Shown piece by piece: positions 4,873-54,173 of a stretch of 64,000 nt of DNA. Each line of letters starts with the position of its first letter. Within the stretch, counting starts at the first letter, position 1. The stretch comes from Diphasiastrum complanatum (Eukaryota > Streptophyta > Lycopodiopsida > Lycopodiales > Lycopodiaceae), in assembly GCA_029204225.1 (NCBI GenBank), contig CM055092.1, forward strand, positions 21,975,669-22,039,668, read 5' to 3'. A program made the translations under genes and the position numbers. Below the pieces are notes generated by a model. The model saw only the letters and a program-made list of their open reading frames with translations, did not search any database and was not told the DNA's origin.

Positions 4873-6118
4873 TGTAGCGCAGGCATCCCAAAGGGAGCCG
4901 GGAACCACGACTTAGCTTCCCAGCCTTCAACTCTTGCCATCCGAACCCACTTGACATACAAGCAGCCAACTCGCCAACAACGATCAGACTTAACCAACTT
5001 GAAGTTCCGAGGACCAACATTGAGATCCAACCTGGCGCCATGCCAGATCGGGGGTCCCGATGTGGGTGACTTCCCTCCAAGCAAGCCGCCCGACATACAT
5101 CAAACTTAACCAACTCGAAGCTTCGTTACAAACGAGTAACATCCATTCCAAGCAAGCGGTCTGACTTACATCAGACTTAACCAACTGAAAGCTTCGTCAC
5201 GAGCGCTGGAAGCCAACCTGGCGCCACGCCAGACTGGACAGCCATAAACAGGTAACTTCCACCCAAGCAAGCCATCCAACTCAGCCGACATGTTAGAGCC
5301 CGTTCCCCAAGAGCTTAACCCATTCACGTTCATGCAAGGAACACTCGGAACCACAAGCCGCGACAGATATGGAGACAACCAGTTCCTGGACCAAATGGTC
5401 CCGACAGCATGCCGCTGGCGCCACGGACCGAATGGTCCCGACGGCATACCGCTGGCGTCCCGGGATACGACCCTCAGCTATGTGCCGAGTTAAAAATTTT
5501 GAAAGCGGCCTTACAACTGGCGCTTTTACCGAACACTGAAACCCAGAAGGTAATCAGAGTCAGTTTGAGGAAAATCCCACTTTATTGATAAATCTGAGAA
5601 GGTTACATTTCAAGTGTGTGACCGACCCTAGTCTCCGGGGCGCTAGCATGCCAAGGCGAGAGCCATGACAACATTCCAGCAAGGGAGGCTGAGACTTGGT
5701 TGGAGCTCGCCCTGAGTCGCAACCCGCACTCCCCTATAGTATTGGTGTGATTCGGCACCCCCCCCTCATACCAAGCACTCTACCCAAGCTGGTAAAGCAC
5801 GTTTTTCTCTCTCTAGGATTTTCTCTTTCTAGAAAGTCATTTTCTCTCTCTAGATTTTATTGATCCCCAGGCTTCCTTTAATCATGCCTAGATCGTGTGA
5901 GGTGATTGCACATCGATCTGAGCTCTCTGGACTTCGCTAGAACCGATCAAAGATTTTCGGCCATAGGAACTTGGCGCCGGCTGGATTCTGGTCACAGTGG
6001 CGCCGGGAGCGACGCCGGCGCCATTGGCGCCGGGAGCAGCAGGGGCGCTGCTGGCGCCGGGGACATAGCTGGCGCCGATGGCGCCGGAAGTAAAGCTTGT
6101 AAAGGTAGCTTTACAACA
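4873..6118 (-). repeat. 3' LTR of element 1
   Basis: This matches 20240-21485 with a constant offset of 15367 bp. The two differences seen are near 5200 (c versus a) and 5484 (g versus a). On the minus strand U3 starts at 6118 with TGTTGTAAAGC, then a CpG-rich stretch with many GGCGCC sites (about 5970-6092). Short repeats of the type aacttaaccaact recur at 4985-5190. Open frames across it are low-complexity and not genes. Confidence 0.93.
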
Positions 6119-6986
6119 TCCACCCCACCTTTATAAAATTTGATGTCCTCATCAGATGTCAGATTAAAGTAAAGGTGTCTCCCAATTAAAATAACTATAC
6201 ATTTAAGCTACTTGGCACAGTACTCAATTTACTGGCCACTTTTTATTAACATTGAAGCTGGCACACCACAAGTCGGAGGCTCAACTCTTTGTACTGAAAA
6301 ATTACATAACTTGAAAATATATCTTTGTCTGGGAAAAGCGTAGATTTGATATCGCTTTCGTAAAACCCGAGAACCTTATTAACTGGTGACAGAGGCCTTT
6401 CTTTGAAATGTTCGCCCCTGTCGCTTCTGACTTTCGACTTTGGAACTCCTTTGAGATCCTGATTTGTCCTTGATGCACTTTATGTTGAGCTCCCTGAGCT
6501 CCAGATTTGTTCAGTTCCGCACAGGTATCAAGGCTCCCTGAGCCGAAGGATTCATCGTTTGATTGCCCACTTTATGGTCCACTCCGTGCCTTGTTGCTTC
6601 TGCACCTTGATTTCTCTCCTTGTCCAAGCCTGATCTTGATACTTTTCCATCTTGGCTCTTTAAGGTAGGCAAAGATTGAGTACTCCACAATGCACCTCTC
6701 ACTTAGCTTGAAGTAGCTCTTTGAATCAGCCCAAATGTAACCATTGACCTCGTGGAAAGCCAAAGGGTCGCACCAGTTTGATCCGCATCCGAACTATCTC
6801 TTCGCGTTTGTTTGAAGCACCATGTCCGTCGCGCAAAACTTGACTTTCACAATTCCATCACTGGTTAGTTGTCTCACAGTCAAAACAAGAAGTGTACATC
6901 GAGCTTGGCTTCAAGTAGCTCTCTTTGAATCAGAAACATGCACCCAGAGTTTGCACTAATCCGATCTCAACGCGAACTGTCCCTTA
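6119..6986 (-). mobile_element. Element 1 internal region, 3' part, with polypurine tract
   Basis: On the minus strand this ends with the conserved TGATGAGGACATCA hairpin (6141-6154) and a purine tract (aaaggtggggtgga) abutting the 3' LTR. The rest is non-coding, with diverged direct repeats: 'gtagctctttgaatcag' occurs near 6713 and again with small changes near 6925. The repeat pattern appears to resume at 18520 beyond the nested insertion, supporting one original region. The last five bases (CTTAG, 6982-6986) are the target duplication of element 2. Confidence 0.8.
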
Positions 6987-7907
6987 GTGTTGTAAAGCTG
7001 ACTTGGGTGCACCCAGCGTGCCCTGTAAGACTCAAAGGGGTGACACTCCCTAAGGTCCCAGAGCAAGTTAGAATGTCAAGGACTGAGCCTCCGACCTGTG
7101 GTGAGCCAGTCAAGTAGTCACAAAGTCATGAGCTAGCTCTGGAGCTCGAGTCATGGCCTAGTCAGGAAAGCAGGTTGATTCGGCCGCCGGGACGGCTCCC
7201 GGGACCCATGTCCGGGAGCCAGACTGATTCTGCCAGGCTTGCCAGGCTTAATCAGCAAAATAAAAACTAAGTCCTAAAAAGCGTGCTTTACCAGAAAGCA
7301 CTATGTTTCAAACCAGAGGGGGTGCGCCGAATCACAGCAGAACTATAGGGGGAGTCCGGCAGACAGAAACTTGGGCACCTCAACCAGCGCCAGGAATCCA
7401 GTCGCCAGGTCTCAGCTCCCTCTACCAGCACGAGCCAGGCACAATGCCCAGCACGTGTTGGTGGCCCCGAGACCGGTCAGTCTATGTATGAATGTAACCT
7501 CTTCCAAATCTAATAAAGTTGATCCTTGGGGATGATTACCATTTCGGTTTCGCCTCCGGGACTGGTCCAAGTGGAAGGACCCTTACTACAACCTTTTTGC
7601 GTCGCTGGCGCCTAAGGGTCCCTGTCATCGACATGGGGCTTGTCGCTATGCCAATTGGTCAGTTTGGCGACCACTATGCCTTGGGTTTCATGTGTGGCTT
7701 GTCTTTGCCTTTGGTTACCTTTTGGGGACGGATTCTGAGTTGGCTTTCGGGTTGGTTGGGATTCCAGTTTTCTTAAGTCTGAATGGTTAAGCTTGTTACG
7801 ATTCTGAGTTGGCTTTTACGTAAGTGCATGATGGATGAATGTTAGACTTAAGCGCGTGTTGGGGAAACCGCTCAAGTCCCAGCGCCCTTTGAGACGCCGG
7901 CGCAACA
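6987..7907 (+). repeat. 5' LTR of element 2
   Basis: The 921-bp LTR runs from TGTTGTAAAGC to GGCGCAACA. A polyadenylation signal AATAAA lies near 7511. A consensus splice donor (ACGTAAGT, cut before 7820) lies near the 3' end. Against the split 3' LTR I saw about five substitutions and one 6-bp indel (ttggtg near 7459). Confidence 0.93.
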
Positions 7908-8740
7908 TGTGGTATCAGAGCCGACTAGCCGGTCAGCTACGCAAGTCTCACAGGGATGGCCACGTTTTTGGGATTTGTCAGGACAACCGTTGCGCAAGGT
8001 GCTGCCCACAGTGTAAGCACGGGTGCGTCCACGGTCGGGGTGGTCGGCAGAACGGGGGACTTGATGAGTCAAAGTGCTGCCCTCGAGGTGTAAGCACGGT
8101 CAGTTCTCGCGGTTCGGGCCTGGCGCTGTTTGCACGTAGGACGGATGAGGCAAAGTGCTGCCTAGGTAGGTGAAAGCACGGTCTGTACCTTGTGGGGTGC
8201 GGGGCGACATATTCGAACTGTACGGGTTAACCATTGATACAGAGATGCTGCTCGAATTCGGGTGTAAAGCACGGGTGGTTAGCTGCCGGTGCGGGATAGC
8301 TGCCGATCGTTTAGCTATAAGGGCTATCGACCAAAAAGTGGTGGGGCGTGACTGAGGCAATGTGCTGCTTAATGGTGAAAGCACGGATGGTTGGATGGAT
8401 GTTTTCCCGTGGGCTAATTCTGTGATAGATTTGTGTGGGCGCGGCTAGGCAAAGGTCCTACGTCCGGTCTCAAGGGGGGTTTGTGGCTTGAGAGGGATCC
8501 TCTATGTTTGCTTTGGTTGGTATGTTCCGTTTGTCGTGTGCTTGCTTGGACACAAATGACCTGGTTCCTACTTGGCTCTCAGGTGATGTGGGCGTGCTAA
8601 GTTTGAGGAAGGTATATTTTCATTGAAGCTGATTTAATAAAGAAGAAAAGAGAGCTGTGGGGCCCGGCTGACAGAAGGGAGAGCTTCAAATATAAAAAGG
8701 ATTGAGGCGATAATCTGTTGGAAGTACACCTCTGACTATA
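7908..8740 (+). promoter_or_regulatory. Element 2 leader: primer-binding site and five hairpin-like units
   Basis: TGGTATCAGAGCC at 7910-7922, two bases after the LTR, is the usual complement of the initiator Met tRNA 3' end. Five spaced units of the form GTGCT...AGCAC follow: 7999-8020, 8074-8097, 8155-8179, 8245-8272 (first base changed) and 8362-8384. Most arms are flanked by a shared context (tgctgcc ... aagcacgg). The same array occurs in elements 1 and 3 although their coding content differs, which suggests a packaging or dimerisation signal (inference). A possible splice acceptor (tctcag) lies at 8577-8582. Short open frames here are not supported as genes. Confidence 0.8.
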
Positions 8741-10954
8741 ATGGAGGACCATCTTGAAGAGTTACGAGCACTGACGGACGGAGAAGAGCTGACTCGAGAA
8801 TACAGCTCTCGCATGCATCGAGATGGCACCAGATCCAAGTTGAGAAAGAAAGAGCGTATGCACTCCACAGTGGCGCCCCTCCATGAAGAGATGGGTGGCC
8901 CTTCTGAACCTACACCAAGAGATGAACCCTTGCCAGAGGCACAACATGACCTCTTTGAAGTGAAGATGCGGCAATACTTATCAAGCGCAATGACGGCTAT
9001 GCTTAGCGAGGTGAAGAAGGATAGAGAAACCGAAAGGAAAGAATGGCAAACATCCTTGCGAGCCATGAATCTTACCCAAATTAACCTTGCTAGAGAAATG
9101 AGAGACGGGCTAACACAGCTCGAAGCCAGGTTTGAAGAGTTGGAAGCAACTAGGGAGAATGCAGTGGCGCCTCCTCCACAGATACCAAGAGAACCACGAG
9201 CGCGAACCACGGAGGGCCCAAGAAAGACTGCCAAAGTGAAAGCACCACCTACTTTCAAAGGAGAGCGTGATATTCGAGTTGTGGAAGATTGGTTGTTTCA
9301 CATGGACCATTACTTCCGTCTAATGAACACTCCTGAGGAAGAAAGAACTGACTTGGCATTAGCATATTTTGAGGGCTACACTACAAATTGGTACCGGATG
9401 GCAGGAATGCATTTTCAAACATGGGACGCATTCAAAGCCGCGTTACGAGAGGAGTTCATACCGAAGGATTCACACATGAGATTGAGGACAGAATTATCGG
9501 GGCTCAAACAGAAAGGGTCATTGCGAGAGTACCTCAATAGATTCAGACAGAGTGTATGGGTTATTGAAGATATGTCCAAGGCGGACAAAACTCATTACCT
9601 ATTGTCTGGAATGCAATCCTGGACCCGACGTGCGATAGACAGCTACATGCCCCATGATTTCAATTCAACTATTCGAGCGGCTGAAATGGTTTGTGATTAT
9701 GAGAGCACATTGGCACCAGCTGCTCCCGCAACCTCAACAAGAGTATTTAGTGGATCCAGACCGAGTCCGAGCTTCTTTTCAAGAGGGGACTCAGCTCCAA
9801 ATGGCAACCAAGCCTCGAGTAGCGTGAATAAATTCCCAACAAAAACAGGGTTTGGCAACCAAGGCAACAATGGAGGGAACATGTTCCAGAGAAGAAACAA
9901 TGTTGGACCTTCGACTAGTCACAGCAACAGCTCACCAACAGTGGGCAGTTCCATGCGTTGCTTCAACTGTCATCAGCAAGGTCACTCTTGGAGATCATGC
10001 CCCAAACCATTGAATAAGCAAATCATGGCTGCCATTGAAGGATTTGATAGGATGGAGAGAGAGGCATTTGATCAAGAAGATGGTGAACAAGATGATGAAG
10101 AGGACCCAGAAACGGATTTGACGGAGTCTGACCTGAATGCCTTGCAACAGATAGGGGCACTTGCGGCTTATCGTGAACATCTTATGGCGACTCCTGCGAG
10201 AGGATCCAAGTTATTGTACCTGAAAGGCTGTATTCAAGGCAGGATCATTTACTTCATGGTAGACCTGGGGGCGTCTCATAACTACTTGTCAGAAAAACTG
10301 ACAGGAGAATTAGACATCCAATGTGAAGAAAATGTGACTCCTATTTGTGTGGAGACCGCGAAAGGTACAATGACCACTTGTAGATTGGCAACCAACTTAC
10401 CAATCTCTCTGGGAGCCTGGAAGAATCGACTAACGTTCACAATCTTGAAGATGGATGCCTTCGACGCTATTTTGGGATTAAGTTGGTTTAACGAACATGT
10501 GGTGGCCTTCTTGGCAAAAGGGGTTAACCTTGTGTTATTATATAATGGCAGGAGACCTTGTGTCGTCAGAGCTGTGCCAGGGGACCAACTAGAAAAGAAC
10601 GACACAAATGAACCTAAGCCAACCATTCCTCCCAATCTCATTCACCTATTTAACGAAGGACAACCAACAGTGACAGACCAGCTGGCACGGGAACAAATGG
10701 AGCCAAAATTGCCTATAGTCTCTACATCAAAGGTGAATTCAAGTGCCGATGCAGAGCTCAAGGAGCTCACCTTGTGTGACCAAGCGAAAACTCACCTTTT
10801 TAATGAAAGACATCCAACAGTGACAAACCAGTTGACGCGAGGTCAAATGGAGCCAACATTGCCTGCAGTTTCTACGTCAAAGGTGAATCTAAGTGCCGAT
10901 GCAGAGCTCAAGGAGCTCAACCTGGACGACCAAACGAAATATCTAGAGTCCTAG
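8741..10954 (+). CDS. gag: Gag polyprotein with inactive-looking protease domain (element 2)
   Basis: This is an intact 737-codon ORF from the first ATG after the leader. Residues about 65-145 are charged and helical. Residues about 170-320 form a retrotransposon gag (capsid) domain (EDWLFHMDHYF, FEGYTTNWYRMAG, FRQSVWVIEDMSKADK). A Ser/Asn-rich linker leads to a CCHC zinc knuckle at 407-420 (CFNCHQQGHSWRSC), then an acidic stretch (EDGEQDDEEDPETD). A retropepsin-like domain starts near 490, but its catalytic triad reads D508-L-G instead of D-S/T-G; the flap-distal ILGLSWF motif is kept. The C-terminus is two tandem 50-residue repeats (10643-10938). The family role is the virus-like particle core that binds genomic RNA. 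No pol follows, which is unusual for a chromovirus-type element; the protease is about half identical by eye to that of element 3, so it is not a simple deletion copy. Confidence 0.93.
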   Translation: MEDHLEELRALTDGEELTREYSSRMHRDGTRSKLRKKERMHSTVAPLHEEMGGPSEPTPRDEPLPEAQHDLFEVKMRQYLSSAMTAMLSEVKKDRETERKEWQTSLRAMNLTQINLAREMRDGLTQLEARFEELEATRENAVAPPPQIPREPRARTTEGPRKTAKVKAPPTFKGERDIRVVEDWLFHMDHYFRLMNTPEEERTDLALAYFEGYTTNWYRMAGMHFQTWDAFKAALREEFIPKDSHMRLRTELSGLKQKGSLREYLNRFRQSVWVIEDMSKADKTHYLLSGMQSWTRRAIDSYMPHDFNSTIRAAEMVCDYESTLAPAAPATSTRVFSGSRPSPSFFSRGDSAPNGNQASSSVNKFPTKTGFGNQGNNGGNMFQRRNNVGPSTSHSNSSPTVGSSMRCFNCHQQGHSWRSCPKPLNKQIMAAIEGFDRMEREAFDQEDGEQDDEEDPETDLTESDLNALQQIGALAAYREHLMATPARGSKLLYLKGCIQGRIIYFMVDLGASHNYLSEKLTGELDIQCEENVTPICVETAKGTMTTCRLATNLPISLGAWKNRLTFTILKMDAFDAILGLSWFNEHVVAFLAKGVNLVLLYNGRRPCVVRAVPGDQLEKNDTNEPKPTIPPNLIHLFNEGQPTVTDQLAREQMEPKLPIVSTSKVNSSADAELKELTLCDQAKTHLFNERHPTVTNQLTRGQMEPTLPAVSTSKVNLSADAELKELNLDDQTKYLES

Positions 10955-11321
10955 GGGACTCATCCAGATGTGCGACGACAACGACATATCTGAGGCTTAA
11001 GGGAGCCGTGAGTACCTTTTTCTTTCATGCTAATAAAGTAAACCGCATTTCTCATTGAGGAGTGAGCTTCAGTTTGATGTCTAAGTGCAGCAGCTTCACA
11101 CAGGTTTTACGTAAGTGAACTAGATCCACACTTTTTCTGTGCTGGGTGTAAAACACAATATCATTACTCTGCTTTACAGTTGGTTTCCTTTGGCCGGTGA
11201 ATCAAGCCCGTGCCCTTGTATATGTGACTAAAGTCTGGCCGGTGAATTAAGCCCGTGCCATGAGTCTTAGGTTCTAGTTTGGCCCTGATGAGGACATCAG
11301 CTTTCTCAAACGAGGGGAGGA
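10955..11321 (+). promoter_or_regulatory. Element 2 3' region and polypurine tract
   Basis: This is a non-coding stretch. A motif ggccggtgaat(c/t)aagcccgtgcc occurs twice (about 11193-11215 and 11238-11260); element 3 has one copy. The hairpin TGATGAGGACATCA is at 11286-11299 and the polypurine tract cgaggggagga at 11311-11321 directly precedes the LTR. A second ACGTAAGT sequence (about 11108-11115) repeats the LTR splice-donor-like motif. Confidence 0.8.
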
Positions 11322-11863
11322 TGTTGTAAAGCTGACTTGGGTGCACCCAGCGTGCCTTGTAAGACTCAAAGGGGTGACACTCCCTAAGGTCCCAGAGCAA
11401 GTTAGAAAGTCAAGGACTGAGCCTCCGACCTGTGGTGAGCCAGTCAAGTAGTCACAAAGTCATGAGCTAGCTCTGGAGCTCGAGTCATGGCCTAGTCAGG
11501 AAAGCAGGTTGATTCGGCCGCCGGGACGGCTCCCGGGACCCATGTCCGGGAGCCAGACTGATTCTGCCAGGCTTGCCAGGCTTAATCAGCAAAATAAAAA
11601 CTAAGTCCTAAAAAGCGTGCTTTACCAGAAAGCACTATGTTTCAAACCAGAGGGGGTGCGCCGAATCACAGCAGAACTATAGGGGGAGTCCGGCAGACAG
11701 AAACTTGGGCACCTCAACCAGCGCTAGGAATCCAGTCGCCAGGTCTCAGCTCCCTCTACCAGCACGAGCCAGGCACAATGCCCAGCACGTGGCCCCGAGA
11801 CCGGTCAGTCTATGTATGAATGTAACCTCTTCCAAATCTAATAAAGTTGATCCTTGGGGATGA
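11322..11863 (+). repeat. 3' LTR of element 2, first part
   Basis: This matches 6987-7534 of the 5' LTR apart from a missing ttggtg. It stops at ...gggGATGA where element 3 begins; the LTR resumes at 18138 with GATGA, the target duplication of element 3. Confidence 0.93.
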
Positions 11864-12780
11864 TGTTGTAAAGCTGACTCAGGTGCACCCAACGTGCCCT
11901 GTAAGACTCTAAGGGGTGACACTCCCTAAAGTCCCAGAGCAAGTTAGAACGTCAAGGACTGAGCCTCCAACCTGTGGTGAGCCGGTCAAGTAGTCACAAG
12001 TCATGAGCTAGCTCTGGAGCTCGAGTCATGGCCTAGTCAGGAAGCAAGTTGATTCTGCCACCAGAACGGCTCCCGGGACCCATGTTCGGGAGCCAGACTG
12101 ATTCTGCCAGGTTGCCAGGCTTAATCAGCAAAATAAAAACTAAGTCCCAAAAAGCGTGCTTTACCAGAAAGCACTATGTTTCAGAACAGAGGGGGTGCGC
12201 CGAATCACAGCAGAACTATAGGGGGAGTCCGGCAGACAGAAACTTGGGCAGCTCAACCAGCGCCAGGAATCCAGTCGCCAGGTCTCAGCTCCCTCTACCA
12301 GCACGAGCCAGGCACAATGCCCAGCACGTGTTGGTGGCCCCGAGACCGGTCAGTCTATGTATGAATGTAACCTCTTCCAAATCTAATAAAGTTGATCCTT
12401 GGGGATGATTACCATTTCGGTTTCGCCTCCGGGACTGGTCCAAGTGGAAGGACCCTTACTACAACCTTTTTGCGTCGCTGGCGCCTAAGGGTCCCTGTCA
12501 TCGACATGGGGCTTGCCGCTATGCCAATTGGTCAGTTTGGCGACCACTATGCCTTGGGTTTCATGTGTGGCTTGTCTTTGCCTTTGGTTACCTTTTGGGG
12601 ACGGATTCTGAGTTGGCTTTCGGGTTGGTTGGGATTCCAGTTTTCTTAAGTCTGAATGGTTAAGCTTGTTACGATTCTGAGTTGGTTTTTACGTAAGTGC
12701 ATGATGGATGAATGTTAGACTTAAGCGCGTGTTGGGGAAACCGCTCAAGTCCCAGCGCCCTTTGAGGCGCCGGCGCAACA
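11864..12780 (+). repeat. 5' LTR of element 3
   Basis: TGTTGTAAAGC ... GGCGCAACA, 917 bp. It has the same polyadenylation-signal block and ACGTAAGT motif (donor at 12693) as the LTR of element 2. Confidence 0.94.
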
Positions 12781-13495
12781 TGTGGTATCAGAGCCGACTA
12801 GCCGGTCAGCTACGCAAGTCTCACAGGGATGGCCACGTTTTTGGGATTTGTCAGGACAACCGTTGCGCAAGGTGCTGCCCACAGTGTAAGCACGGGTGCG
12901 TCCACGGTCGGGGTGGTCGGCAGAACGGGGGACTTGATGAGTCAAAGTGCTGCCCTCGAGGTGTAAGCACGGTCAGTTCTCGCGGTTCGGGCCTGGCGCT
13001 GTCTGCACGTAGGACGGATGAGGCAAAGTGCTGCCTAGGTAGGTGAAAGCACGGTCTGTACCTTGTGGGGTGCGGGGCGACATATTCGAACTGTACGGGT
13101 TAACCATTGATACAGAGATGCTGCTCGAATTCGGGTGTAAAGCACGGGTGGTTAGCTGCCGGTGCGGGATAGCTGCCGATCGTTTAGCTATAAGGGCTAT
13201 CGACCAAAAAGTGGTGGGGCGTGACTGAGGCAATGTGCTGCTTAATGGTGAAAGCACGGATGGTTGGATGGATGTTTCCCCGTGGGCTAATTCTGTGATA
13301 GATTTGTGTGGGCGCGGCTAGGCAAAGATCCTACGTCCGGTCTCAAGGGGAATGTGACTTGAGAGGGATCCTCTGTTTAGCTTTGGTTGGTATGTTCGTT
13401 TGTGGTGTGCTTGCCTGGACCTGAATTATCCCTGACTACTTCTTTTGATCCAGGTGATCTGATCTAGTTGGGAGTTGTGAGAGGAGCTTACATTT
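12781..13495 (+). promoter_or_regulatory. Element 3 leader with primer site and hairpin array
   Basis: The primer site TGGTATCAGAGCC is at 12783-12795. The five GTGCT...AGCAC units sit at the same spacing as in element 2 (offset +4873, first unit 12872-12893). Similarity to the element 2 leader holds to about 13455 (a shared caggtgat block) and then ends just before the Pol start. The block may be a splice acceptor (ag 13452-13453). Confidence 0.8.
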
Positions 13496-16400
13496 ATGAG
13501 TGGACGACGCACAAGTATGGAAAGGAACTTCGATGGGGCAACCCCCAAGATTGGTTCAAGATTGTTATTCTTATCAGGAAAGATCGCGGGGAGGAAGTCA
13601 GATTTCATGATCGACTCCGGAGCTTCACATAACTATATCTCAAGGAGCGTAGTGGAACAATTCAGCTTGCCGACCAGGAATGTTACATCTACTCTCAAGG
13701 TAGAAACAGCGAAGGGAGCACTAGATGCAGACAAAGCGACATTGAACATCCCGGTGCAGATTGGAAGATGGAAGGCTAAACTTAGCTTTGTGATTTTAGA
13801 GATGGATGCCTTTGATGTGATTTTGGGCCTCCCTTGGTTAAATGAACACTGTATCGCAGTTTTGGGTAGGAGCTCAAACTTGGTCCTCTTGGATTATAAG
13901 GGACAAATCTGCGTGACAAAAGCCCTGCCCGGAGGAAATGCTAAGGATACCGATATTGAACAAAATCTGGTTGCAGCATTAGTGATGAAAAGAATGGCGA
14001 AAGGGAAAAGGTCAAAGTGCTTTCTTTGCATCTGTCGAGAAGTCCCAGAAGGGAAAAGCGTGCGACAAGAAAACTTGCCAAAAGAAGTGGCAGATCTGTT
14101 AGAAGAATTTAGCGATGTGTTCCCGGAGGAACTCCCAGCTAAGCTACCTCCTCGAAGACCAGTGGACCATAAAATTGAGTTGGTACCAGGAACAGAGCCA
14201 ACTTCACGAGCACCCTACAGAATGTCACAAGAAGAGTTGGCGGAACTGAAACGACAACTTGGTGAATTGATAGACAAAGGTTTTATTAGACCTAGCGCTT
14301 CACCTTTTGGAGCCCCAGTGTTGTTCGTGGAAAAGGCAGACAAAACTCTTCGAATGTGTGTGGATTATCGCATGCTTAACAAGAGTACCATCAAGAACAA
14401 GTACCCCATGCCTAGAATTGATGACCTATTCGACCAACTCAAACATGCCAAATACTTTAGCCGAATAGATCTCAGATCTGGATATCATCAAATTCGAATA
14501 GCTAAAGGTGATGAGCACAAAACGGCGTTTCGAACGCGGTACGGAAGTCACGAGTTCCTAGTGATGCCATTCGGTCTAACAAACGCACCAGCCACTTTTT
14601 GCACGTTGATGAACAATATATTTCAAGACTGCCTGGATGAATTTGTCATTGTGTACATTGATGACATATTAGTATTTAGCCGGAACCTTAAAGATCACAT
14701 TCAACATTTAAGGACAGTTCTCCAACGACTGAGGAGGAACTGCTTGTTCGCGAAAAGAGAGAAATGTGAGTTTGTGGTGGAGGAAGTTGACTTCCTTGGA
14801 CATGTTATAGGCCACGGACGGATTCGAATGGATCCTAAGAAGATCAAGGCTATCTTGGATTGGCTAGCACCTAAAACTGTTCATGGCATCAAATCCTTTG
14901 TGGGCTTATGTAACTTTTACAGGAGATTCATTGAGGCATTTAGCAAAATTGTGGCACCACTGTTGGAGCAGACCAAGACTCATCTGAAGATGACATGGAC
15001 ACCGGAATGTGAAGCAGCGTTCCAGGAACTAAAACGACGGATCACTCAAGAACCCATCCTTGCCTTACCGGACTTTAGCAAACCTTTTGAAATACATACA
15101 GATGCGTCGAACTTTGCTATTGGGGCCGTGCTGATGCAAGACGGAAAACCTGTTGCATATTTTTCAAAGAAATTGAGTGACGTAGAGCGACGATGGCCAA
15201 CTCATGAAAAAGAAATGGTCGCAGTAGTCCAAGCAGTGGAGCATTGGAGACATTATGTGGCAGGAAAACCCTTTAAGGCGTTCACTGATAATGTATCACT
15301 CAAGTACTTCTCATCCCAAGGTATGCTCACGCCAAAGCAAATGCGATGGCAAAACTTTCTCTCAAAATTCAATATAGACATTTTACACACGGCGGGAAAG
15401 AACAATGTGGTGGCGGACGCACTAAGTAGACAAGAACACTTGATGGCAACAGTGACAACTCAGGTGACTGACCTACTCCAAGAAATCAGAGAGAATTATG
15501 GTGTGGATGCGTTGGCGAAGGACTTAATGATCGAATTCCAGCTGGGAAAGCCTCATAAACATTTCACTTGGAAAGATCAAATGGTTGTTTATAAACAACG
15601 CAGAGTATATGTCCCAGACAGCATCAACCTGAGGAAGAAAGTCTTGCGAGAACATCATGACGTACTAGCCGCCGGGCATCCAGGGGTGAATCGCATGTAT
15701 GAACTTCTCAAAAGAGGCTTCTATTGGCCAAGTATGTGGGCAGACGTTGAATCTTATGTACAAACATGCCCGACATGTCAACAAGTGAAGGTGGAACCGC
15801 TAGCTCCGGCTGGACTACTCCAACCATTACCGGTACCAGCATACCCATGGGATTCGGTGAGCATGGATTTTATTGTTCAACTACCACGATGCCAAGGATT
15901 CGACTCAATTTATGTGGTGGTTGACCGCTTTTCAAAGCAAGTTCATCTAGTACCAACTAAAAGTTCAGTGACAGCTGAAGAAGTGGCAAGGTTATTTTTC
16001 AAATGTGTTTTCAAATACCACGGCCTGCCTAGAACGATTATTTCTGACCGAGACACCAAGTTCGTCGGAAAGTTTTGGACTTGTCTATTTCGCCTCGTGG
16101 GAACCGGATTGAATTTCAGTACTGCATATCATCCTCAGACAGATGGGCAAACGGAGCGAGTCAATCGACAGATTGAACAATATTTACGAAATTATGTCGC
16201 TTGGGACCAATCCGATTGGGTCAACTACTTGGATATTCTCGAGTTTGCACATAACAACCAAGTGAACAGATCTACTGGAAGGGCACCCTTCGAGATAAGC
16301 AATGGTCGGCTACCGATTGTTCCAAGCTCTTTTCTTACAGGCGTGCAGGAAACACCAGTACCCACTGTGGAGGAATTCATCAATGAGTGGCACACAAAGT

Positions 16401-16978
16401 TGACCGAGGTGAAGGCGTTTTTAGAGCAGTCACAAAGGAGTATGGCAGCTGACGTAAACCCACATCGACGAGAACTGGAATTTGAGGAAGGTGATCAAGT
16501 ATGGCTGAACACAAAGAACATTGCGCTACCAAAAGGTTTTTCTCATAAGTTTGCTCGACCTTATGCGGGACCATATTATGTCACCAAGAAGATCAACCCA
16601 GTGGCTTATCGATTAGCGTTGCCATCCAGCTTGGATATACACAATGTGTTCCATATCTCATTACTCAAACGGTACAAACCAGATGAGCGATTTGATCGGC
16701 AACACGAACTCCGTCACCCACCAACGACACTTGATGATACGAAGAGGCAGCTTGTACCAGAACAAATATTGACACATAGAAAGCGAACTGGCGTTCAACG
16801 TGAATATCTAGTGAAGTGGCTACGGGCTCCACTTATTGAGGCTTCTTGGGAGTACGAAGACAAACTTAAGGAGGGAGCCCCTGAAGTACTAGCAGATTAT
16901 CTGCAGAAGAACCAACGCAATAGCCGTTTTCCCAGATCGGCACACAAAGCACTACCTGGCGGCATGCCTCTTACATAA
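13496..16978 (+). CDS. pol: Pol polyprotein: protease, RT, RNase H, integrase, chromodomain (element 3)
   Basis: This is an uninterrupted 1160-codon ORF with its own ATG shortly after the leader. Retropepsin: [13 protein letters not shown] with catalytic D40. Reverse transcriptase: about 225-440, with YIDD at 387-390. RNase H: about 530-650, with D536 in the HTDAS motif and VADALSR at its end. Integrase: an HHCC zinc module from about 720 ([19 protein letters not shown], then CPTCQQVK), and a DDE core with D791, D851 and E887. The C-terminal chromodomain (about 1080-1130) includes [16 protein letters not shown]. The domain order PR-RT-RH-IN-chromo is that of plant chromoviruses, which normally fuse Gag upstream in the same ORF. 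Here Gag is absent and Pol starts independently. All catalytic residues I can check are present, so it could encode working enzymes if supplied with Gag. Confidence 0.96.
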
Positions 16979-17219
16979 ACATTCATGGCCATTCTGAAGT
17001 TCAAGGAACTTTCCGGTATTTTTCTTAAGTTTGCCAATAAATCACTTGCAGCTTTACACAGGTTTTACGTAAGTGAACTTTATCTACACTTTTCCTGTGC
17101 TACTGCCAATGTATTTTGTAATTCAAAGTTGCTAAGGCCGGTGAATTAAGCCCGTGCCATACGTCCTAGGTCTAGTTTGGCCCTGATGAGGACATCAGCT
17201 TTTTCAAACGAGGGGAGGA
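16979..17219 (+). promoter_or_regulatory. Element 3 3' region and polypurine tract
   Basis: It resembles the 3' region of element 2: acaggttttACGTAAGTgaac near 17055, one ggccggtgaattaagcccg block, TGATGAGGACATCA at 17184-17197, and the purine tract cgaggggagga immediately before the LTR at 17220. Confidence 0.8.
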
Positions 17220-18137
17220 TGTTGTAAAGCTGACTCAGGTGCACCCAACGTGCCCTGTAAGACTCTAAGGGGTGACACTCCCTAAAGTCCCAGAGCAAGT
17301 TAGAACGTCAAGGACTGAGCCTCCAACCTGTGGTGAGCCGGTCAAGTAGTCACAAGTCATGAGCTAGCTCTGGAGCTCGAGTCATGGCCTAGTCAGGAAG
17401 CAAGTTGATTCTGCCACCGGAACGGCTCCCGGGACCCATGTTCGGGAGCCAGACTGATTCTGCCAGGCTTGCCAGGCTTAATCAGCAAAATAAAAACTAA
17501 GTCCCAAAAAGCGTGCTTTACCAGAAAGCACTATGTTTCAGAACAGAGGGGGTGCGCCGAATCACAGCAGAACTATAGGGGGAGTCCGGCAGACAGAAAC
17601 TTGGGCAGCTCAACCAGCGCCAGGAATCCAGTCGCCAGGTCTCAGCTCCCTCTACCAGCACGAGCCAGGCACAATGCCCAGCACGTGTTGGTGGCCCCGA
17701 GACCGGTCAGTCTATGTATGAATGTAACCTCTTCCAAATCTAATAAAGTTGATCCTTGGGGATGATTACCATTTCGGTTTCGCCTCCGGGACTGGTCCAA
17801 GTGGAAGGACCCTTACTACAACCTTTTTGCGTCGCTGGCGCCTAAGGGTCCCTGTCATCGACATGGGGCTTGCCGCTATGCCAATTGGTCAGTTTGGCGA
17901 CCACTATGCCTTGGGTTTCATGTGTGGCTTGTCTTTGCCTTTGGTTACCTTTTGGGGACGGATTCTGAGTTGGCTTTCGGGTTGGTTGGGATTCCAGTTT
18001 TCTTAAGTCTGAATGGTTAAGCTTGTTACGATTCTGAGTTGGTTTTTACGTAAGTGCATGATGGATGAATGTTAGACTTAAGCGCGTGTTGGGAAAACCG
18101 CTCAAGTCCCAGCGCCCTTTGAGGCGCCGGCGCAACA
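17220..18137 (+). repeat. 3' LTR of element 3
   Basis: A 918-bp partner of 11864-12780. Differences seen are one base in the ccaccRgaacgg block, one extra c in the ccaggcttgcc block, and one base in gttggg(g/a)aaacc. Confidence 0.94.
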
Positions 18138-18514
18138 GATGATTACCATTTCGGTTTCGCCTCCAGGACTGGTCCAAGTGGAAGGACCCTTACTACAACC
18201 TTTTTGCGTCGCTGGCGCCTAAGGGTCCCTGTCATCGACATGGGGCTTGCCGCTATGCCAATTGGTCAGTTTGGCGACCACTATGCCTTGGGTTTCATGT
18301 GTGGCTTGTCTTTGCCTTTGGTTACCTTTTGGGGACGGATTCTGAGTTGGCTTTCGGGTTGGTTGGGATTCCAGTTTTCTTAAGTCTGAATGGTTAAGCT
18401 TGTTACGATTCTGAGTTGGCTTTTACGTAAGTGCATGATGGATGAATGTTAGACTTAAGCGCGTGTTGGGGAAACCGCTCAAGTCCCAGCGCCCTTTGAG
18501 GCGCCGGCGCAACA
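18138..18514 (+). repeat. 3' LTR of element 2, second part
   Basis: This matches 7531-7907 and completes the LTR interrupted at 11863. Its first five bases are the GATGA duplication. It ends GGCGCAACA and is followed by CTTAG, the right-hand target duplication of element 2. Confidence 0.93.
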
Positions 18515-19760
18515 CTTAGCGTCCGTTCGAAATACCAAGTCTCTCATGCAAGACTCAACTTTCTCAGTTCCTTCATTGATCAGCTGCCTTACGCGTAACA
18601 CAAGCCAGCGTACTCATATGTTTCCTCATCATTGCTGGTCTAGAGAAAGCCTATAACAAACTTTCCTTTCCACAACAAAAACTTGTCAACTTATTAGGTC
18701 CAAAGTTCGCCAGTCTCCTCGTGTGAGTATGGCTAGGTCACCTTGAATTTGCCCCCATTTTGATCAACTTTAATTCAAAATTTGCCCCAAGAGAGAGGTG
18801 TGTGTGATAGTTCCCCTCCACTTAATAAATCAGCTGATCGGACTTTAGAGTAGAGTTCTTCGGACAAAAGCCTTTCCAACACTTTGCTTCCCATCTGCTA
18901 GGATTATGGCTCGATCCAACTTGTTGCCAATCTCTGAAGAGGATCCTAGTCTTTTCCCCTTTGAGGAAAAACCCAACTGATACTGGATATCACCCATGCT
19001 CAGTGAGTTTCAGTTCCGAAGGTGGCCGTCCCAAAATGAAGACCAACTGCTATAGAAGATCTCCCCTGAAATGGCCCTTTCCAACTTTTGACTTCCTGCT
19101 TGCGTCTGGTGGGCGTTGTCGCAAATGAAACTAACCTAAGAAACAGGCTAGTCATCCATCCTTTGCAAACATTGAGTCATTTCGTTGTCGTTCACGTGCG
19201 AGTACTTGAACTGCAAATCCGCCGCACAGATTCTGGATATCGCCCATGCTCAGTGAGTTTCAGTTCCGAAGGTGGCCGTCCCAAAATGAAGACCAACTGC
19301 TCCATAGAAGATCTCCCCTGAAATGGCCCTTTCCAACTTTTGACTTCCTGCTTGCGTCTGGTGGGCGTTGTCGCAAATGAAACTAACCCAAGAAACAGGC
19401 TAGCCATCCATCCTTTGCAAACATTGAGTCGTTTCGTTGTCGTTCACGTGTGAGTACTTGAACTGCAAATCCGCCCCACAGATTCTGTAGTCCTCTTTGT
19501 TTGATGGTATCAGCCTTCAAAAGAAAAGGTTCCTTCTCGAGCCATCAGCTCCTTGTATCACAAGCAATCATGCAAACCAGGCAAAGCACGAGTACTAAGA
19601 CTCACCACGAATACGTACAAGTAAGACACTCAGGCAGGTTTACTAACAAGTAACAAAGACAAGGTCCCCCTTTGAGATGGTCCTGCCAACGGACCTTTGC
19701 CTAGCCGCGCCCATACAAATCAATCACGGAATCAGCCCACATAGGACACCTCTCCAACCA
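18515..19760 (-). mobile_element. Element 1 internal region, 5' part (non-coding)
   Basis: This continues element 1 after the nested insertion. No gag or pol similarity is visible on either strand. It contains the 250-bp tandem duplication listed separately. Open frames are under 80 codons and duplicated with the repeat, so they are not called as genes. Confidence 0.75.
18983..19482. repeat. Tandem duplication, about 250 bp x 2, inside element 1
   Basis: The unit starting ctggatatc(a/g)cccatgctcag at about 18983 repeats from about 19233 with a few substitutions and a 2-bp indel (gctat versus gctccat). Confidence 0.9.
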
Positions 19761-20239
19761 TCCGTGCTTTCATCATTAAGCAGCACATTGCCTCAGTCAC
19801 GCCCCACCACTTTTTGGTCGATAGCCCTTATAGCTAAACGATCGGCAGCTATCCCGCACCGGCAGCTAACCACCCGTGCTTTACACCCGAATTCGAGCAG
19901 CATCTCTGTATCAATGGTTAACCCGTACAGTTCGAATATGTCGCCCCACACCCCACAAGGTACGGACCGTGCTTTCATCTCCCTAGGCAGCACTTTGCCT
20001 CATCCGTCCTACGTGCAGACAACGCCAGGCCCGAACTGCGAGAACTGACCGTGCTTACACCTCAAGGGCAGCACCTTGACTCATCAAGTCCCCCGTTCTG
20101 CCGACCACCCCGACCGTGGACGCACCCGTGCTTACACTGTGGGCAGCACCTTGCACAACAGTTGTCTTGATGAACCCCAAACCATGGCCATTTCCGTGAG
20201 ATCCGCATAGCTGACCGGCCAGTCGGCTCTGATACCACA
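19761..20239 (-). promoter_or_regulatory. Element 1 leader: primer site and hairpin array
   Basis: On the minus strand the 5' LTR (ending at 20240) is followed by TGGTATCAGAGCC (20225-20237). The GTGCT...AGCAC units then follow as in elements 2 and 3: about 20130-20151, 20051-20074, 19969-19992, 19876-19903 and 19764-19786. Similarity to the other leaders is high across this block and stops near its end, where the unrelated non-coding internal sequence begins. The leader is therefore the main internal sequence common to all three elements. Confidence 0.85.
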
Positions 20240-21485
20240 TGTAGCGCAGGCATCCCAAAGGGAGCCGGGAACCACGACTTAGCTTCCCAGCCTTCAACTC
20301 TTGCCATCCGAACCCACTTGACATACAAGCAGCCAACTCGCCAACAACGATCAGACTTAACCAACTTGAAGTTCCGAGGACCAACATTGAGATCCAACCT
20401 GGCGCCATGCCAGATCGGGGGTCCCGATGTGGGTGACTTCCCTCCAAGCAAGCCGCCCGACATACATCAAACTTAACCAACTCGAAGCTTCGTTACAAAC
20501 GAGTAACATCCATTCCAAGCAAGCGGTCTGACTTACATCAGACTTAACCAACTGAAAGCTTCGTCAAGAGCGCTGGAAGCCAACCTGGCGCCACGCCAGA
20601 CTGGACAGCCATAAACAGGTAACTTCCACCCAAGCAAGCCATCCAACTCAGCCGACATGTTAGAGCCCGTTCCCCAAGAGCTTAACCCATTCACGTTCAT
20701 GCAAGGAACACTCGGAACCACAAGCCGCGACAGATATGGAGACAACCAGTTCCTGGACCAAATGGTCCCGACAGCATGCCGCTGGCGCCACGGACCGAAT
20801 GGTCCCGACGGCATACCGCTGGCGTCCCGGGATACGACCCTCAGCTATGTGCCAAGTTAAAAATTTTGAAAGCGGCCTTACAACTGGCGCTTTTACCGAA
20901 CACTGAAACCCAGAAGGTAATCAGAGTCAGTTTGAGGAAAATCCCACTTTATTGATAAATCTGAGAAGGTTACATTTCAAGTGTGTGACCGACCCTAGTC
21001 TCCGGGGCGCTAGCATGCCAAGGCGAGAGCCATGACAACATTCCAGCAAGGGAGGCTGAGACTTGGTTGGAGCTCGCCCTGAGTCGCAACCCGCACTCCC
21101 CTATAGTATTGGTGTGATTCGGCACCCCCCCCTCATACCAAGCACTCTACCCAAGCTGGTAAAGCACGTTTTTCTCTCTCTAGGATTTTCTCTTTCTAGA
21201 AAGTCATTTTCTCTCTCTAGATTTTATTGATCCCCAGGCTTCCTTTAATCATGCCTAGATCGTGTGAGGTGATTGCACATCGATCTGAGCTCTCTGGACT
21301 TCGCTAGAACCGATCAAAGATTTTCGGCCATAGGAACTTGGCGCCGGCTGGATTCTGGTCACAGTGGCGCCGGGAGCGACGCCGGCGCCATTGGCGCCGG
21401 GAGCAGCAGGGGCGCTGCTGGCGCCGGGGACATAGCTGGCGCCGATGGCGCCGGAAGTAAAGCTTGTAAAGGTAGCTTTACAACA
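20240..21485 (-). repeat. 5' LTR of element 1
   Basis: A 1246-bp copy of 4873-6118. It is flanked on the outside by GAAAT (21486-21490) and on the inside by the primer site. It contains the GGCGCC-rich U3 block at about 21337-21459. Confidence 0.94.
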
Positions 21486-21526
21486 GAAATGCCCACATGT
21501 TGTAAAGCTACCTTTACAAGCTTTAC
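21459..21526. repeat. Near-perfect inverted repeat at a head-to-head LTR junction
   Basis: The end of element 1 (21485) and the start of an opposite-orientation LTR (21498) are only 12 bp apart. Their first ~36 bases are nearly identical, giving a long palindrome. Each arm also holds its own small palindrome (TTGTAAAG ... CTTTACAA). Confidence 0.9.
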
Positions 21527-22442
21527 TTCCGGTGCCACTGGCGCCAGCATTTTCCCCGACGCCAGCAGCGCCACTGCTGCTCCTGGTGCCACCGGCGTCG
21601 GCGCCGCTCCAGGTGCCACTCCCGGCGCCACTGTGACCAGAATCCAGCTGGTGCCAAGTTCCTATGGCTGAAAATCTTTGATCGGTTCTAGCGAAGTCCA
21701 GAAAGCTCGAATCGATGTGCAATCACCTCACACGATCTAGGCATGTTAAAGGAAGCTTGGGGATCAATAAATTTTAGAGAGAGAAAAGGATTTCCTAGAG
21801 AGAGAAAATTCTAGAGAGAGAAAACATGCTCTACCAGCCTGGGCAGAGCACTTGGTATGAGGGGAGGTGGCGAATCCCACCAATACTATAGGGGAATGCG
21901 GGTTGCGACTCAGGGCGACAAGTCTCAGCTTCCCTTGCTGGAATGTTGTCTTGGCGTCCCGCCTTGGCATGCCAGCGCCCCGGAGACTAGGGTCGCTCAC
22001 ACACTTGAAATGTAACCTTCTCAGGTTTATTAATAAAATGGGATTTTCCTCAAACTGACTCTAATTACCTTTTGGGTTTCAGTGTTTGGTAAAAGCGCCA
22101 GTTGTAAGGCCGCTTCAAATCTTTTTGATCTACCACATAGCTGAGGGTTGTATCCCGGGATGCCATCAATATGCCGTCGGGACCATTCGGTCTTGGACGC
22201 CAGCGGTATGCTGTCAGGACCATTCGGTCCATGAACTGGTTGTCTTCATATCTGTTGCGGCTTGTGGTTCTGAGTGTTCCTTGCGTGAACGTGAACGGAT
22301 TAAGCTTTTGGGGAACGGCTCTAACCTGTCGGCTGAGTTGAATGGCTTGCTTGGGTGAAAGTTACTTGTTTATGGCTGTCCAGTCTGGCGTGGTGCTAGG
22401 TTGGCTTCCAACGCTTGTGACGAAGCTTTGAGTTGGTTAAGT
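21498..22442 (+). mobile_element. Truncated LTR related to element 1, opposite orientation
   Basis: It starts TGTTGTAAAGCTACC and follows the element 1 LTR for about 945 bp with many differences and indels, including a polyadenylation signal (aataaaatggg near 22029). It ends inside the sequence gttggttaagt, about 300 bp short of the LTR 3' end. No internal region follows. It is more diverged than the element 1 LTR pair and predates that insertion. Confidence 0.85.
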
Positions 22443-22556
22443 CAAGAGGTCCAAGACACTCCCCTCGTATCTTGAATTACCCTATGATGGCAGTTTTCAA
22501 TGCCACCTGGGGGCAACTCTCACTCCTTGTAAAATGGGAGAGAGTACTCTTTAATT
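22443..22556 (+). repeat. 110-bp repeat, copy 2
   Basis: A diverged direct copy of 4747-4856 (caagaggtccaag ... ctttaattgg) lying immediately after the truncated LTR. Confidence 0.75.
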
Positions 22557-28862: not shown

Positions 28863-31800
28863 TATTAATGTCTTTTCCATGCCAAAGGCATAAAAGACTA
28901 ATGAAGTACATGTCAAGTGTGTGGTAACCATGGGCCCGAAGAAGAACTGAAGAGAAGGTCAATAAGACGTCTCCCTTCAGCATCATCGTAAGAACGCTTC
29001 TTACGACGGAGAACACGGTGGTAGGAGCGTCAGGAAGATCGAAGCAGATGTGGAGCGTGGATACGTGAATAAGTAATTGACTGGTGAAGGGAACGACACT
29101 CGGCATCATACCAAGGAGGGTGTGCGTCGAGTCTTTTGGGAATGGGGTTTTGTGGGAAGAGTTAGTGATGCAGAGAGGTGGTGAGAAAAGCAGCCTCGAC
29201 TGGACCGTCATGAGGAAAGGAGTGTAAAAGTGAAGCCAAGGATTGCCGGTATAGTGGCATGTAAATGGGATCAAATGTGTACATGGGTGCTCGGGTAATT
29301 ATGGGTAGTGTAGATGAATGAGTGGGTGGGGGGTGGCCGATATCGAAGGAGAGAAATGAGTGATCAGAAAGGGTGGTGGGAGAAACGCGGAAGTCAGAGA
29401 CTATGGGTACAAAGGATGGTGACCCCATGAGATAGTCAACGACACTATACTCCACTGTGAGGATGGCATGTATAGTTGTCTGAATGTGGCCAGCAGGGTA
29501 AGCTGTAATCTCTTGGATTCCGCCTCTGAGCTCACTGTAGACTGAAGTATGGTGCCATAGAGCTTCGCAAGAACATGCCCAATCATGATAGTGTGGTAGT
29601 TATTGTTAGGAACAACATAACAATATGAAGGCAAAGCTAGTCTGATCCACCCTGCCGATGCACTCTCTTATAGAATGCCCCTCCTAGCCCAATGTGAGTT
29701 TGCACGGGAACGATAGGTGGGAGTTACTGCCAACACCCAGTGTTCATGCTGCATGGACTAGATTACTGTTGCATGTGTGGTCCCAGTCCATCACCGATGG
29801 ATTACATGGCGCCAGACTGTCATGCATGCGTCTGCATGTGTCCGCATGGTCATTACTGGCCCTCATACCAACTGCATGGTATGCCTGACTCACACTGTCC
29901 TCTGCCCTCTGGTGGTTAGCTGTTTCCAGATGTTGGGTCGGTACTATTACGGTCTTGTAATACTCCCTCCCCCTTAAGAACAGTCTTCGTCCTCTAAGAC
30001 AAAATCTGGATTAGTGCCTCTTTCTCAAGTGGCATTCTCAACTGGCTGATCCTTCCACTTGATCAAATATTCTTGATATAGTGTATGACGAGTCTGTGTC
30101 TCCCTAACAGTGAGAATACTTTCTGGCTCATGTGGAAGTTGCTGAGAATCTTTGAGGGGAACTAGAACACTGTCCTTGACTAGATTATCTGATCTAGTTA
30201 AAGCCCTTCGTAACCGACTGACATGGAAAACTGGATGGACTTTAGCTCATAGGAAACTTTGTCTATTCTCCTAATAATGGTAAACGAACCACAATACCTA
30301 GGAGACAACTTAGCACACACTCCTGTTTTGAGCGTTTTAGTGTCATCTGAGACTCGAAGAAAGATTTTCTCACTAGGAGAGAATTGTACATCCCGTCTGT
30401 GTGGATCTGCACACTGCTTAGCTCGATCTTGGGCTTGCCTAATGCTACGCTTAGCATGTTTTACCATCTGGTTTAGGTTTTCTAAAAAGTTTTTGTTGCT
30501 TCAACTTTTTCCTGTTTAAACTCCACTGTTGTGGCTGAGCGTGGCTGAAAACCATACATCAGCATGAAGGGGCTGTATACCGTAGCTAAATGTTTGGTAT
30601 TCTTATAAGCAAACTCTAATATTGAGAGATATTCCTCCCAATTTGTCTGCTTTTTCCTGACGTATGCACGAAGCATATCCTCCAGCACATGATTTGCTCT
30701 TTCTGTTTGACCGTCCGTTTGTGGATGGTATGTAGTACTCATGTTTAGTTTAGTATGGAGATGATGGAATACTGCCCTCCAAAAATTTCCATTAAACTTA
30801 CTGTCCTGGTCACTGACTATGCCGGAAGGGAGACCATATAATTTAATAGTCCGTCTATAAACAACCTTGCTAATTCTGGAGCTCTAACGGTTGTTTTGGT
30901 CGGAATAAAGTGAGCCATTTTGGTCAAACGGTCAACTGCAACCCATATCGCATCATGACCCTTCTAGGTCGTATACTTGGATGAATCTTTCCCAGGCCTA
31001 GGAACTGGTTCAGAAGTATGCACGTCTCTGTTCTGGACTGTCTTCCAGATTATGGAGAAATACGAATCACTTTTACATTTACCCCTCAAGGACAAGAGTA
31101 ACTCATTACGAAACTGGGTAAAACTCAACTCGTTTATCATTGGCATTCTGCTAAGAGCATCTCCCACTATATTGAACTTTCCTTGTTTATATCTGAAATA
31201 CAAGTCAAATTCATGCATTAGCTCAGCCCATCGAGCTTTCTGACCTCCTCAATATGAAATGGAGTTTCAGTGATCTTATGCATACCTATGTTTAATGTAT
31301 CTCTCTCTTTCTTCAAGTGATATGTCCTAGGGATTGGGACTTTTCTAATTTGAACTTGCTTAAAAGCTTCTCTAATTAGTTTAAATGTTGTTGCATATGC
31401 TTCTCTGCTAATACCCACAAAATCACAAGCACCCTGAACTATAGTCTTATCTAAATTTTTTTGAATGTCCACCATCAAAGACTCTGCTATTTTACACTTT
31501 ACATTTGAAATCATATTGTTCATCACGATACGCTCAGTGGATTTGCAAGTCAATATTGTGCCCAATGACATTCCTAGTGAAGCATTGTCTTTAATATTCC
31601 GAGAGCTCAGGCTGGTTACACAAATATCTAAGGCTTTCATGGTCAGTCAGGACCTCAAAGCTAGCACCATACAAATAATGCCGCCAAGTCTTAAGGTCAT
31701 GAATAATAGAAAAAAATTCCTTCTCATAAGCACTATATCTGGTTTGAGTGGGTTCAAGCTTCTTACTTTCGAACGCTATTGGTCGTCCGTTTTGGTTCAA

Positions 31801-54020: not shown

Positions 54021-54173
54021 TGTGGTATCAGAGCCGACTAGCCGGTAAGTCTCACAAGGAAGGCCACTTTTTGAGATTTGTCAGGACAGCCGTTGTGCAA
54101 GGTGCTGCCCACAGTGTAAGCACGGGTGCGTCCACGGTCGGGGGTCATGGGAGACTTGATGAGTCAATGTGAT

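Follow-up and report, generated by a model that had tools for sequence, protein, structure and literature searches.

Gag-only and Pol-only elements at one locus

We analysed a stretch of 64,000 nucleotides from Diphasiastrum complanatum (Lycopodiaceae; GenBank assembly GCA_029204225.1, contig CM055092.1, forward-strand positions 21,975,669 to 22,039,668), hereafter the window, and describe from it a pair of long terminal repeat (LTR) retrotransposons, one of which encodes Gag and the other Pol. Three elements of one family are nested in the window: the Pol-only element E3 lies in the 3′ LTR of the Gag-only element E2, which in turn lies in E1, a non-coding relative. E2 (6988–18514) has the LTR ends TGTTG...CAACA and the target-site duplication (TSD) CTTAG on both sides; its features and those of E3 are all on the + strand. 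The 5′ LTR of E2 is 920 bp long (6988–7907). Its 3′ LTR is split by a block at 11864–18142, which comprises E3 and the duplicated target, into a first part that ends in the target GATGA (11322–11863) and a second part beyond E3 (18143–18514). Because E3 is inserted in this LTR, E2 reaches as far as 18514, which corrects the boundaries given in a preliminary description of the sequence. E3 itself (11864–18137) has a 917-bp 5′ LTR (11864–12780), a 918-bp 3′ LTR (17220–18137) and the TSD GATGA at 11859–11863 and 18138–18142.

The two elements have their primer site, leader, 3′ hairpin and polypurine tract in common. The sequence TGGTATCAGAGCC, which we take to be a tRNA primer-binding site, is at 7910–7922 in E2, and the corresponding site of E3 is at 12783–12795. 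Both leaders carry five hairpins of the form [AG]TGCTGC...AGCAC at leader nucleotides 92–477 (leader cores at 7999–8384 in E2 and 12872–13257 in E3), with hairpins at closely corresponding positions in E1, and we regard this array as a candidate packaging signal. The five hairpins in the E3 leader compare with a mean of 0.001 in 2000 dinucleotide shuffles, a count that is descriptive because the motif was first noticed in that same leader. The 3′ hairpin CTGATGAGGACATCAG is at 11285–11300 in E2 and 17183–17198 in E3, and the polypurine tract (GAGGGGAGGA in E2) is at 11312–11321 and 17210–17219. Alignment bore out the earlier statement that the LTRs and all of these signals are nearly identical. 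The LTRs of E2 and E3 differ from each other by 21–22 mismatches over 911–918 aligned bases; within each element the LTR pair differs by six mismatches (E2) or two (E3), in agreement with the view that both elements are young.

E2 contains an intact gag open reading frame (ORF) of 737 codons (8741–10954) and none of the enzymes of Pol, as first described; the frame is open, and the only Pfam domains are those of Gag and a protease-like domain. The protein consists of a capsid domain, a CCHC zinc knuckle (nucleocapsid; 9959–10000, recognised by eye), the protease-like domain (10223–10498) and a further tail. In the protease-like domain the active-site triplet reads DLG (10262–10270), a form expected to be inactive in an aspartic protease; DLG also occurs in every one of 20 further young copies of Gag and in the two older ones. 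An AlphaFold model of this domain from a three-row alignment had a mean predicted local distance difference test score of 34.5 and was not used. A search for Gag homologues, in which the 7996 candidates that shared most words were scored, returned none at an E value of 0.001 or better, and the capsid–nucleocapsid part of E2 matches 44 of the 120 listed relatives of Pol, the best ten at 24–28%. The tail contains two imperfect 148-bp tandem copies (84%; 10642–10939), which are also present in three other Gag copies.

E3, in turn, contains an intact pol ORF of 1160 codons (13496–16978) and no gag, again as originally stated. By Pfam, this ORF extends from a protease (13574–13843, active-site DSG) through reverse transcriptase (RT) and RNase H (14327–15370, YIDD present) and the zinc-binding and core domains of integrase (15626–16135) to a chromodomain (PF00385; 16754–16909, residues 1087–1138 of the protein, E=1e-9). 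The chromodomain is at the C terminus of the integrase, as in Chromovirus (Ty3/gypsy); the layout with Gag and Pol in one polyprotein, which is usual for Chromovirus and not strictly defining, is absent from both E2 and E3. The ORF starts about 15 residues ahead of the part that matches the protease-like domain of Gag, and an in-frame stop lies six codons upstream of that start. The RT–RNase H region is 57–60% identical to the ten best of the 120 listed relatives, many of which are annotated with gag and a chromodomain. Typical close relatives of the whole protein among those listed are plant gag-pol polyproteins of 1450–1560 amino acids, which share 46–48% identity with it across some 95% of the query.

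The two proteins match each other significantly only in the protease. The two domains, judged by eye to be about half identical, are 44% identical over 142 residues, and BLASTP of E2 Gag against E3 Pol returned nothing significant outside them. The earlier claim that each element carries a protease holds for the domain; it fails for the catalytic D-S/T-G motif, which the Gag-borne copy lacks. DSG is found in E3, in the Pol copy on contig C694 (discussed below) and in three older Pol copies. A scan of the 120 listed Pol relatives for D[STAL]GA[ST] gave DTGAT (22), DSGAS (16), DTGAS (11) and DSGAT (9) and no DLG; the remaining relatives had no match to the pattern.

Recurrence, movement and selection

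Both types recur in the source genome (1.74 Gb), which was searched with each protein. The best 61 of 18,441 Gag candidates, which were the ones scored, are all 99–100% identical and all have an open frame of 746 amino acids; three have one TAG and 58 have no stop. The best 40 of 107,449 Pol candidates are likewise 99–100% identical, with an open frame of 1165 amino acids in 39 and 1171 in one; three have one TGA and 37 have no stop. The primer site and leader start (33 bases) have 2036 exact matches, and the leader-to-gag junction is found at 556 places with up to three mismatches (control, 0 in each case). A DNA search with a 300-bp piece of the LTR found only 14 places, which is not a copy count because that search passes over very common words.

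To classify the copies by coding content, we took the first 100 leader starts listed, all on contig C1 (0.6–64.1 Mb). By hand count these are 44 leaders of the E2/E3 type, 3 intermediates and 53 of the E1 type, and the coding census covers the 44. It comprises 20 Gag-type and 17 Pol-type copies. Ten of the 44, including E2, show the gag junction at the distance expected, in a match made by hand, and E3 is one more; the other 33, of which 161 bases each were read, gave 10 Gag-type and 16 Pol-type sites, 2 sites with LTR sequence and 5 without a match. Eight of the 10 newly read Gag-type sites were recognised by the Gag-type leader end and two by gag itself, and each of the 16 newly read Pol-type sites has a one-piece match (84–99%) that spans the junction of leader and pol. 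At the other end of gag, 10 of 12 Gag-type C1 copies pass cleanly into the 3′ untranslated region of the Gag element itself, and pol follows in none of the 12. Nor does gag lie upstream of pol in any of 20 fetched Pol 5′ ends or of the 16 newly read Pol-type sites; the leader measures 681–717 nucleotides to the start of pol in 18 of the 20, and the other two align to leader and pol with no match to Gag.

Some leader sites have other contents. Five C1 sites (L108/L109 and L110/L114/L116) open into two recurring interiors without a match, perhaps further types of element that use the same leader. At another site (L027; C22:29219800-29223000), the full end LTR of a Gag-only copy is joined directly to the leader of a Pol copy, from nucleotide 215, followed by pol; this is perhaps a Gag element inserted into the leader of a Pol element.

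Both kinds of element have inserted recently. The LTR start and primer site are recognisable in 18 of 20 fetched 5′ ends of Gag copies and in 18 of 20 of Pol copies; of the other four copies, L046 can be aligned throughout but its primer-site word is altered, internal deletions are present in L048 and L067, and L068, which lacks the LTR start, can be aligned at 98% beginning at LTR position 154. Exact 5-bp TSDs and LTR pairs with 0–3 mismatches were found in seven of the eight copies read at both ends; the 3′ end of the eighth (L034) was not resolved. Contig C694 (81.8 kb) matches the window locus at 99.2–99.8% and contains the same E1 and E2. There, the 3′ LTR of E2 is uninterrupted, which provides an empty site for E3, and a Pol-only copy with the TSD CCGTC lies 516 bp past that LTR, at a position that is empty in the window. 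Given these reciprocal empty sites, Pol-only elements moved after the two versions of the locus separated.

Older copies indicate that both ORFs have been under purifying selection. Pairwise counting of the Nei–Gojobori type against two older Gag copies gave ratios of nonsynonymous to synonymous divergence (dN/dS) of 0.31 (607 codons, dN 0.080, dS 0.256) and 0.32 (545 codons, dN 0.085, dS 0.270). For pol, the ratio was 0.11 against one older copy (1152 codons, dN 0.026, dS 0.240) and 0.15 (575 codons), 0.27 (803 codons), 0.27 (817 codons) and 0.30 (467 codons) against further ones. The last of these is E4, a decayed Pol-type relative in the window (53300–57050, + strand) with LTRs of the same family as those of E2 and E3. 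Two Pol copies on contig C7 count as one lineage because they are nearly identical to each other. Decay of the older copies after insertion should raise such ratios.

Nor is the split layout confined to young copies: it is already present in two older copies of Gag and three of Pol, and the older copies stand at a dS of about 0.24–0.34. These copies bear on the idea that E2 and E3 arose by ordinary deletion from a single recent gag-pol parent, which would explain why they share LTRs and leader. The protease domains, at just 44% identity, are too divergent for that, the older copies were already split and no parent was seen; like the preliminary description, we reject this origin, which is now hardly credible. 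That description had held that abundant complete gag-pol copies with these LTRs, or neutral evolution of the ORFs, would point to such derivatives. No complete copy appeared among the 44 leaders, the 12 gag ends and the 20 Pol 5′ ends, and dN/dS is 0.31–0.32 for gag and 0.11–0.30 for pol.

Alternatively, a complete gag-pol chromovirus at some other genomic site might have E2 and E3 as its non-autonomous or semi-autonomous partners, which is the pattern published, in the accounts available, for several Gag-only gypsy elements of wheat (Wilma/Sabrina/WHAM and Cereba/Quinta). The window contains another decayed gypsy element (30542–33568, − strand) with a weakly supported knuckle, protease, RT and integrase in gag-pol order, and diverged gag-pol copies would go unlisted when only the most query-like copies are scored. 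However, Pol (or Gag) would be superfluous if there were a complete helper, yet dN/dS falls to 0.11 for pol and 0.31 for gag, nearly all of the best-scoring copies are free of stops (58 of 61 for Gag, 37 of 40 for Pol) and the C1 sample contains no gag-pol copy. We consider such a helper unlikely.

A common 5′ block and its interpretation

We compared the 5′ ends of 19 Gag and 19 Pol copies (18 fetched copies and the window copy of each), leaving out L046, L048, L067 and L068. Sites were counted strictly, without gaps, and ‘U3’ is used as a nominal label for LTR nucleotides 1–325. Near-fixed differences between the classes fall at LTR positions 17–323 and from 1465 on, with none between. LTR 1–325 has 8 fixed differences in 326 sites and a divergence between classes (dxy) of 0.049; positions 326–1462, from R-U5 to leader nucleotide 545, have 0 fixed differences in 1137 sites and a dxy of 0.0051; and the leader end, from 1463 on, has 32 fixed differences in 151 sites. 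Over LTR 326–917, E2 differs from E3 at 4 of 592 sites and from the older Gag copies at 32–34 of 587. A block without fixed differences, beside class-specific U3 and leader end, would be the natural outcome if the two RNAs were packed into common particles and recombined there.

The leader of E1 has a similar mosaic structure. Compared with E3 over leader nucleotides 81–480, E1 differs at 11 of 400 sites, older Pol copies at 14–18 and older Gag copies at 32–33, whereas the flanking parts of the E1 leader are far off (14 of 79 sites in nucleotides 1–80, and 12 of 64 in nucleotides 481–545) and the E1 LTR can barely be aligned. Template switching between co-packed RNAs would account for such mosaics. 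Functional constraint might also keep the block alike, in which case its identity would be silent on co-packaging: the block contains a polyadenylation-signal word as well as the primer site and the hairpins, each of which might plausibly be constrained. However, the diversity within classes in the block (0.0065 in Gag, 0.0035 in Pol) resembles that in U3 (0.0045 and 0.0079), so the block is not frozen, and in leader nucleotides 81–480 older copies differ from E2 and E3 at 14–34 per 400 sites, partly through decay after insertion. Constraint in place of exchange is therefore quite improbable, and given the within-class diversity and the E1 mosaic we hold it unlikely to be the sole cause of the leader identity.

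We think it likely, on the sequence evidence, that a chromovirus-type retrotransposon is here split into two coding halves, E2 and E3, which are packed together and supply each other, each probably dependent on the other. The Gag-only RNA would make the shell protein, and the Pol-only RNA would make protease, RT, RNase H and integrase with its chromodomain. Because the RNAs of E2 and E3 have R-U5, primer site and five-hairpin leader in common at their 5′ ends, we propose that both are packed together; the shared 5′ end points to common particles. RNAs of E2, E3 and the non-coding E1 would thus enter particles built from Gag of the E2 type, and enzymes of the E3 type would copy them. The protease of E3 presumably cuts Gag, as the protease-like domain of Gag has lost the catalytic motif.

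The preliminary description had proposed a two-component system of this kind, and its outline stands: the types are separate, young, recurrent and under selection, and share a 5′ end. Its further elements, namely complementation in trans, a Gag:Pol ratio set by separate transcripts and the absence of a helper element, go beyond what these data demonstrate, and we infer them. A more elaborate version, which we regard as doubtful, is a segmented retroelement without any complete parent, composed of three RNAs, one for Gag, one for Pol and a non-coding satellite, that are packed together by the five-hairpin signal. In such an element, the motif-less protease-like domain of Gag would dock the live protease at the N-terminal end of Pol and so replace the Gag–Pol fusion as the means by which Pol enters the particle.

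Several observations weigh against a mutually dependent pair. Scoring only the top candidates skews the Gag and Pol lists towards window-like copies and biases the counts of intact frames. In the C1 census, 7 of the 44 leaders were neither Gag-type nor Pol-type in the stretch read, and of the 12 gag ends one is rearranged, with its junction kept, and one is unmatched. The two older Gag copies are nearly identical to each other and count as one lineage. On C694, the gag ORF of E2 has one stop, and it differs from the window copy by four amino-acid changes and one silent change (the Pol copy there has one and five, respectively); such near-identical copies tell little about selection. Polymorphisms common to both classes number five sites (four in the block and one in U3), mostly in single copies. 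Finally, the U3 of E2 differs at 12 of 317 sites from that of one older Pol copy and at 19–22 of 324 from those of the older Gag copies. U3 is thus class-specific only among young copies, and parts of the LTR crossed between the classes earlier too.

The outermost element, E1 (4873–21485, − strand), has LTRs of 1246 bp each at 4873–6118 and 20240–21485 that are 99.84% alike, the TSD GAAAT (read by eye) and a leader at about 20239–19691. The interior of E1 gave no match to Gag of E2 or Pol of E3 and has no ORF of at least 150 amino acids. LTRs and priming sites around a non-coding interior define LARDs (large non-coding LTR elements), and E1 has this composition. As the host of E2, E1 must be older, yet its LTRs are almost identical, whereas the LTR pair of E2, younger by nesting, differs by six mismatches and a six-base gap; gene conversion of the E1 LTRs, or E2 LTRs that were unequal at birth through template switching, could explain the mismatch in age. 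An inverted LTR of the E1 type (21498–22443) lies about 12 bp from the right LTR of E1 and is 88% alike. Elsewhere in the window, an ORF at 46948–47613 contains a Copia-type RT fragment (RVT_2), and 60509–62925 (− strand) contains ORFs of 350, 277 and 204 amino acids, the two longer of which have no Pfam match.

Relation to known systems

Retroelements commonly make Pol as a fusion to Gag, which secures both the packaging of Pol and the Gag:Pol ratio. If our interpretation is correct, this lineage keeps Gag and Pol as separate elements that exchange parts, a multipartite life cycle for a retroelement, and is a natural test of how Pol is recruited without fusion. For that recruitment, the motif-less protease-like domain that is kept under selection in Gag is a definite candidate, and one that can be tested. 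Foamy viruses have a single viral genome and a spliced pol RNA, which sets them apart from two separate elements such as E2 and E3. Pol of foamy viruses is also made without fusion to Gag and, in the accounts available, its packaging involves a bridging RNA.

Each half of the pair has partial counterparts. E2, with gag as its only gene between two LTRs and with a primer site and polypurine tract, has the composition of the TR-GAG elements, which are LTR elements with a gag gene alone; we know of no Pol-only partner for these. E3 keeps pol and cannot make Gag, like Gag-less elements of the BARE2 type. BARE2 of barley is unable to make Gag, and particles of BARE1 package its RNA (PMC3735527); as far as the source describes it, BARE2 differs from E3 in being a Copia element that lost the gag start codon through an 8-bp deletion, and its partner BARE1 is complete. 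The wheat elements Wilma, Sabrina and WHAM are described as high-copy, with Gag and protease only, and Sabrina_SA and WHAM are termed semi-autonomous (PMC9744471). By these accounts, BARE1/BARE2 and Wilma/Sabrina/WHAM are one-sided cases, unlike the split of E2 and E3. In the centromeric Cereba/Quinta pair of wheat, the Gag-only partner has conserved parts of the LTR and the primer site and is thought to contribute Gag (PMC11302176). This relation, too, is one-sided as described, because Cereba encodes a complete gag-pol; no such complete partner of E2 and E3 appeared within the samples read.

A literature search that reached few subscription papers did not turn up any description of a chromovirus that is split so that Pol lies in a partner without Gag. 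The idea of a split is not new, having been suggested for Fatima of wheat in 2018, and Fatima is the closest precedent. In the text available, one Fatima variant carries Gag and protease and another carries RT, RNase H, integrase and protease (TREP3189/TREP3198), with LTRs that are 91% identical and a protease region that is 65% identical (PMC3129301); one subfamily was suggested to give RT and integrase, and others protease and Gag (PMC6097303). E2 and E3 resemble Fatima in that Gag with protease and protease with RT and integrase lie on separate variants with shared LTRs. However, the Fatima Pol polyprotein is described as having weak similarity to gag, whereas Pol of E3 begins close to the protease and E3 lacks gag. 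As far as the text available describes Fatima, the chromodomain, the DLG triplet in Gag and the mapped common block set E2 and E3 apart from it.

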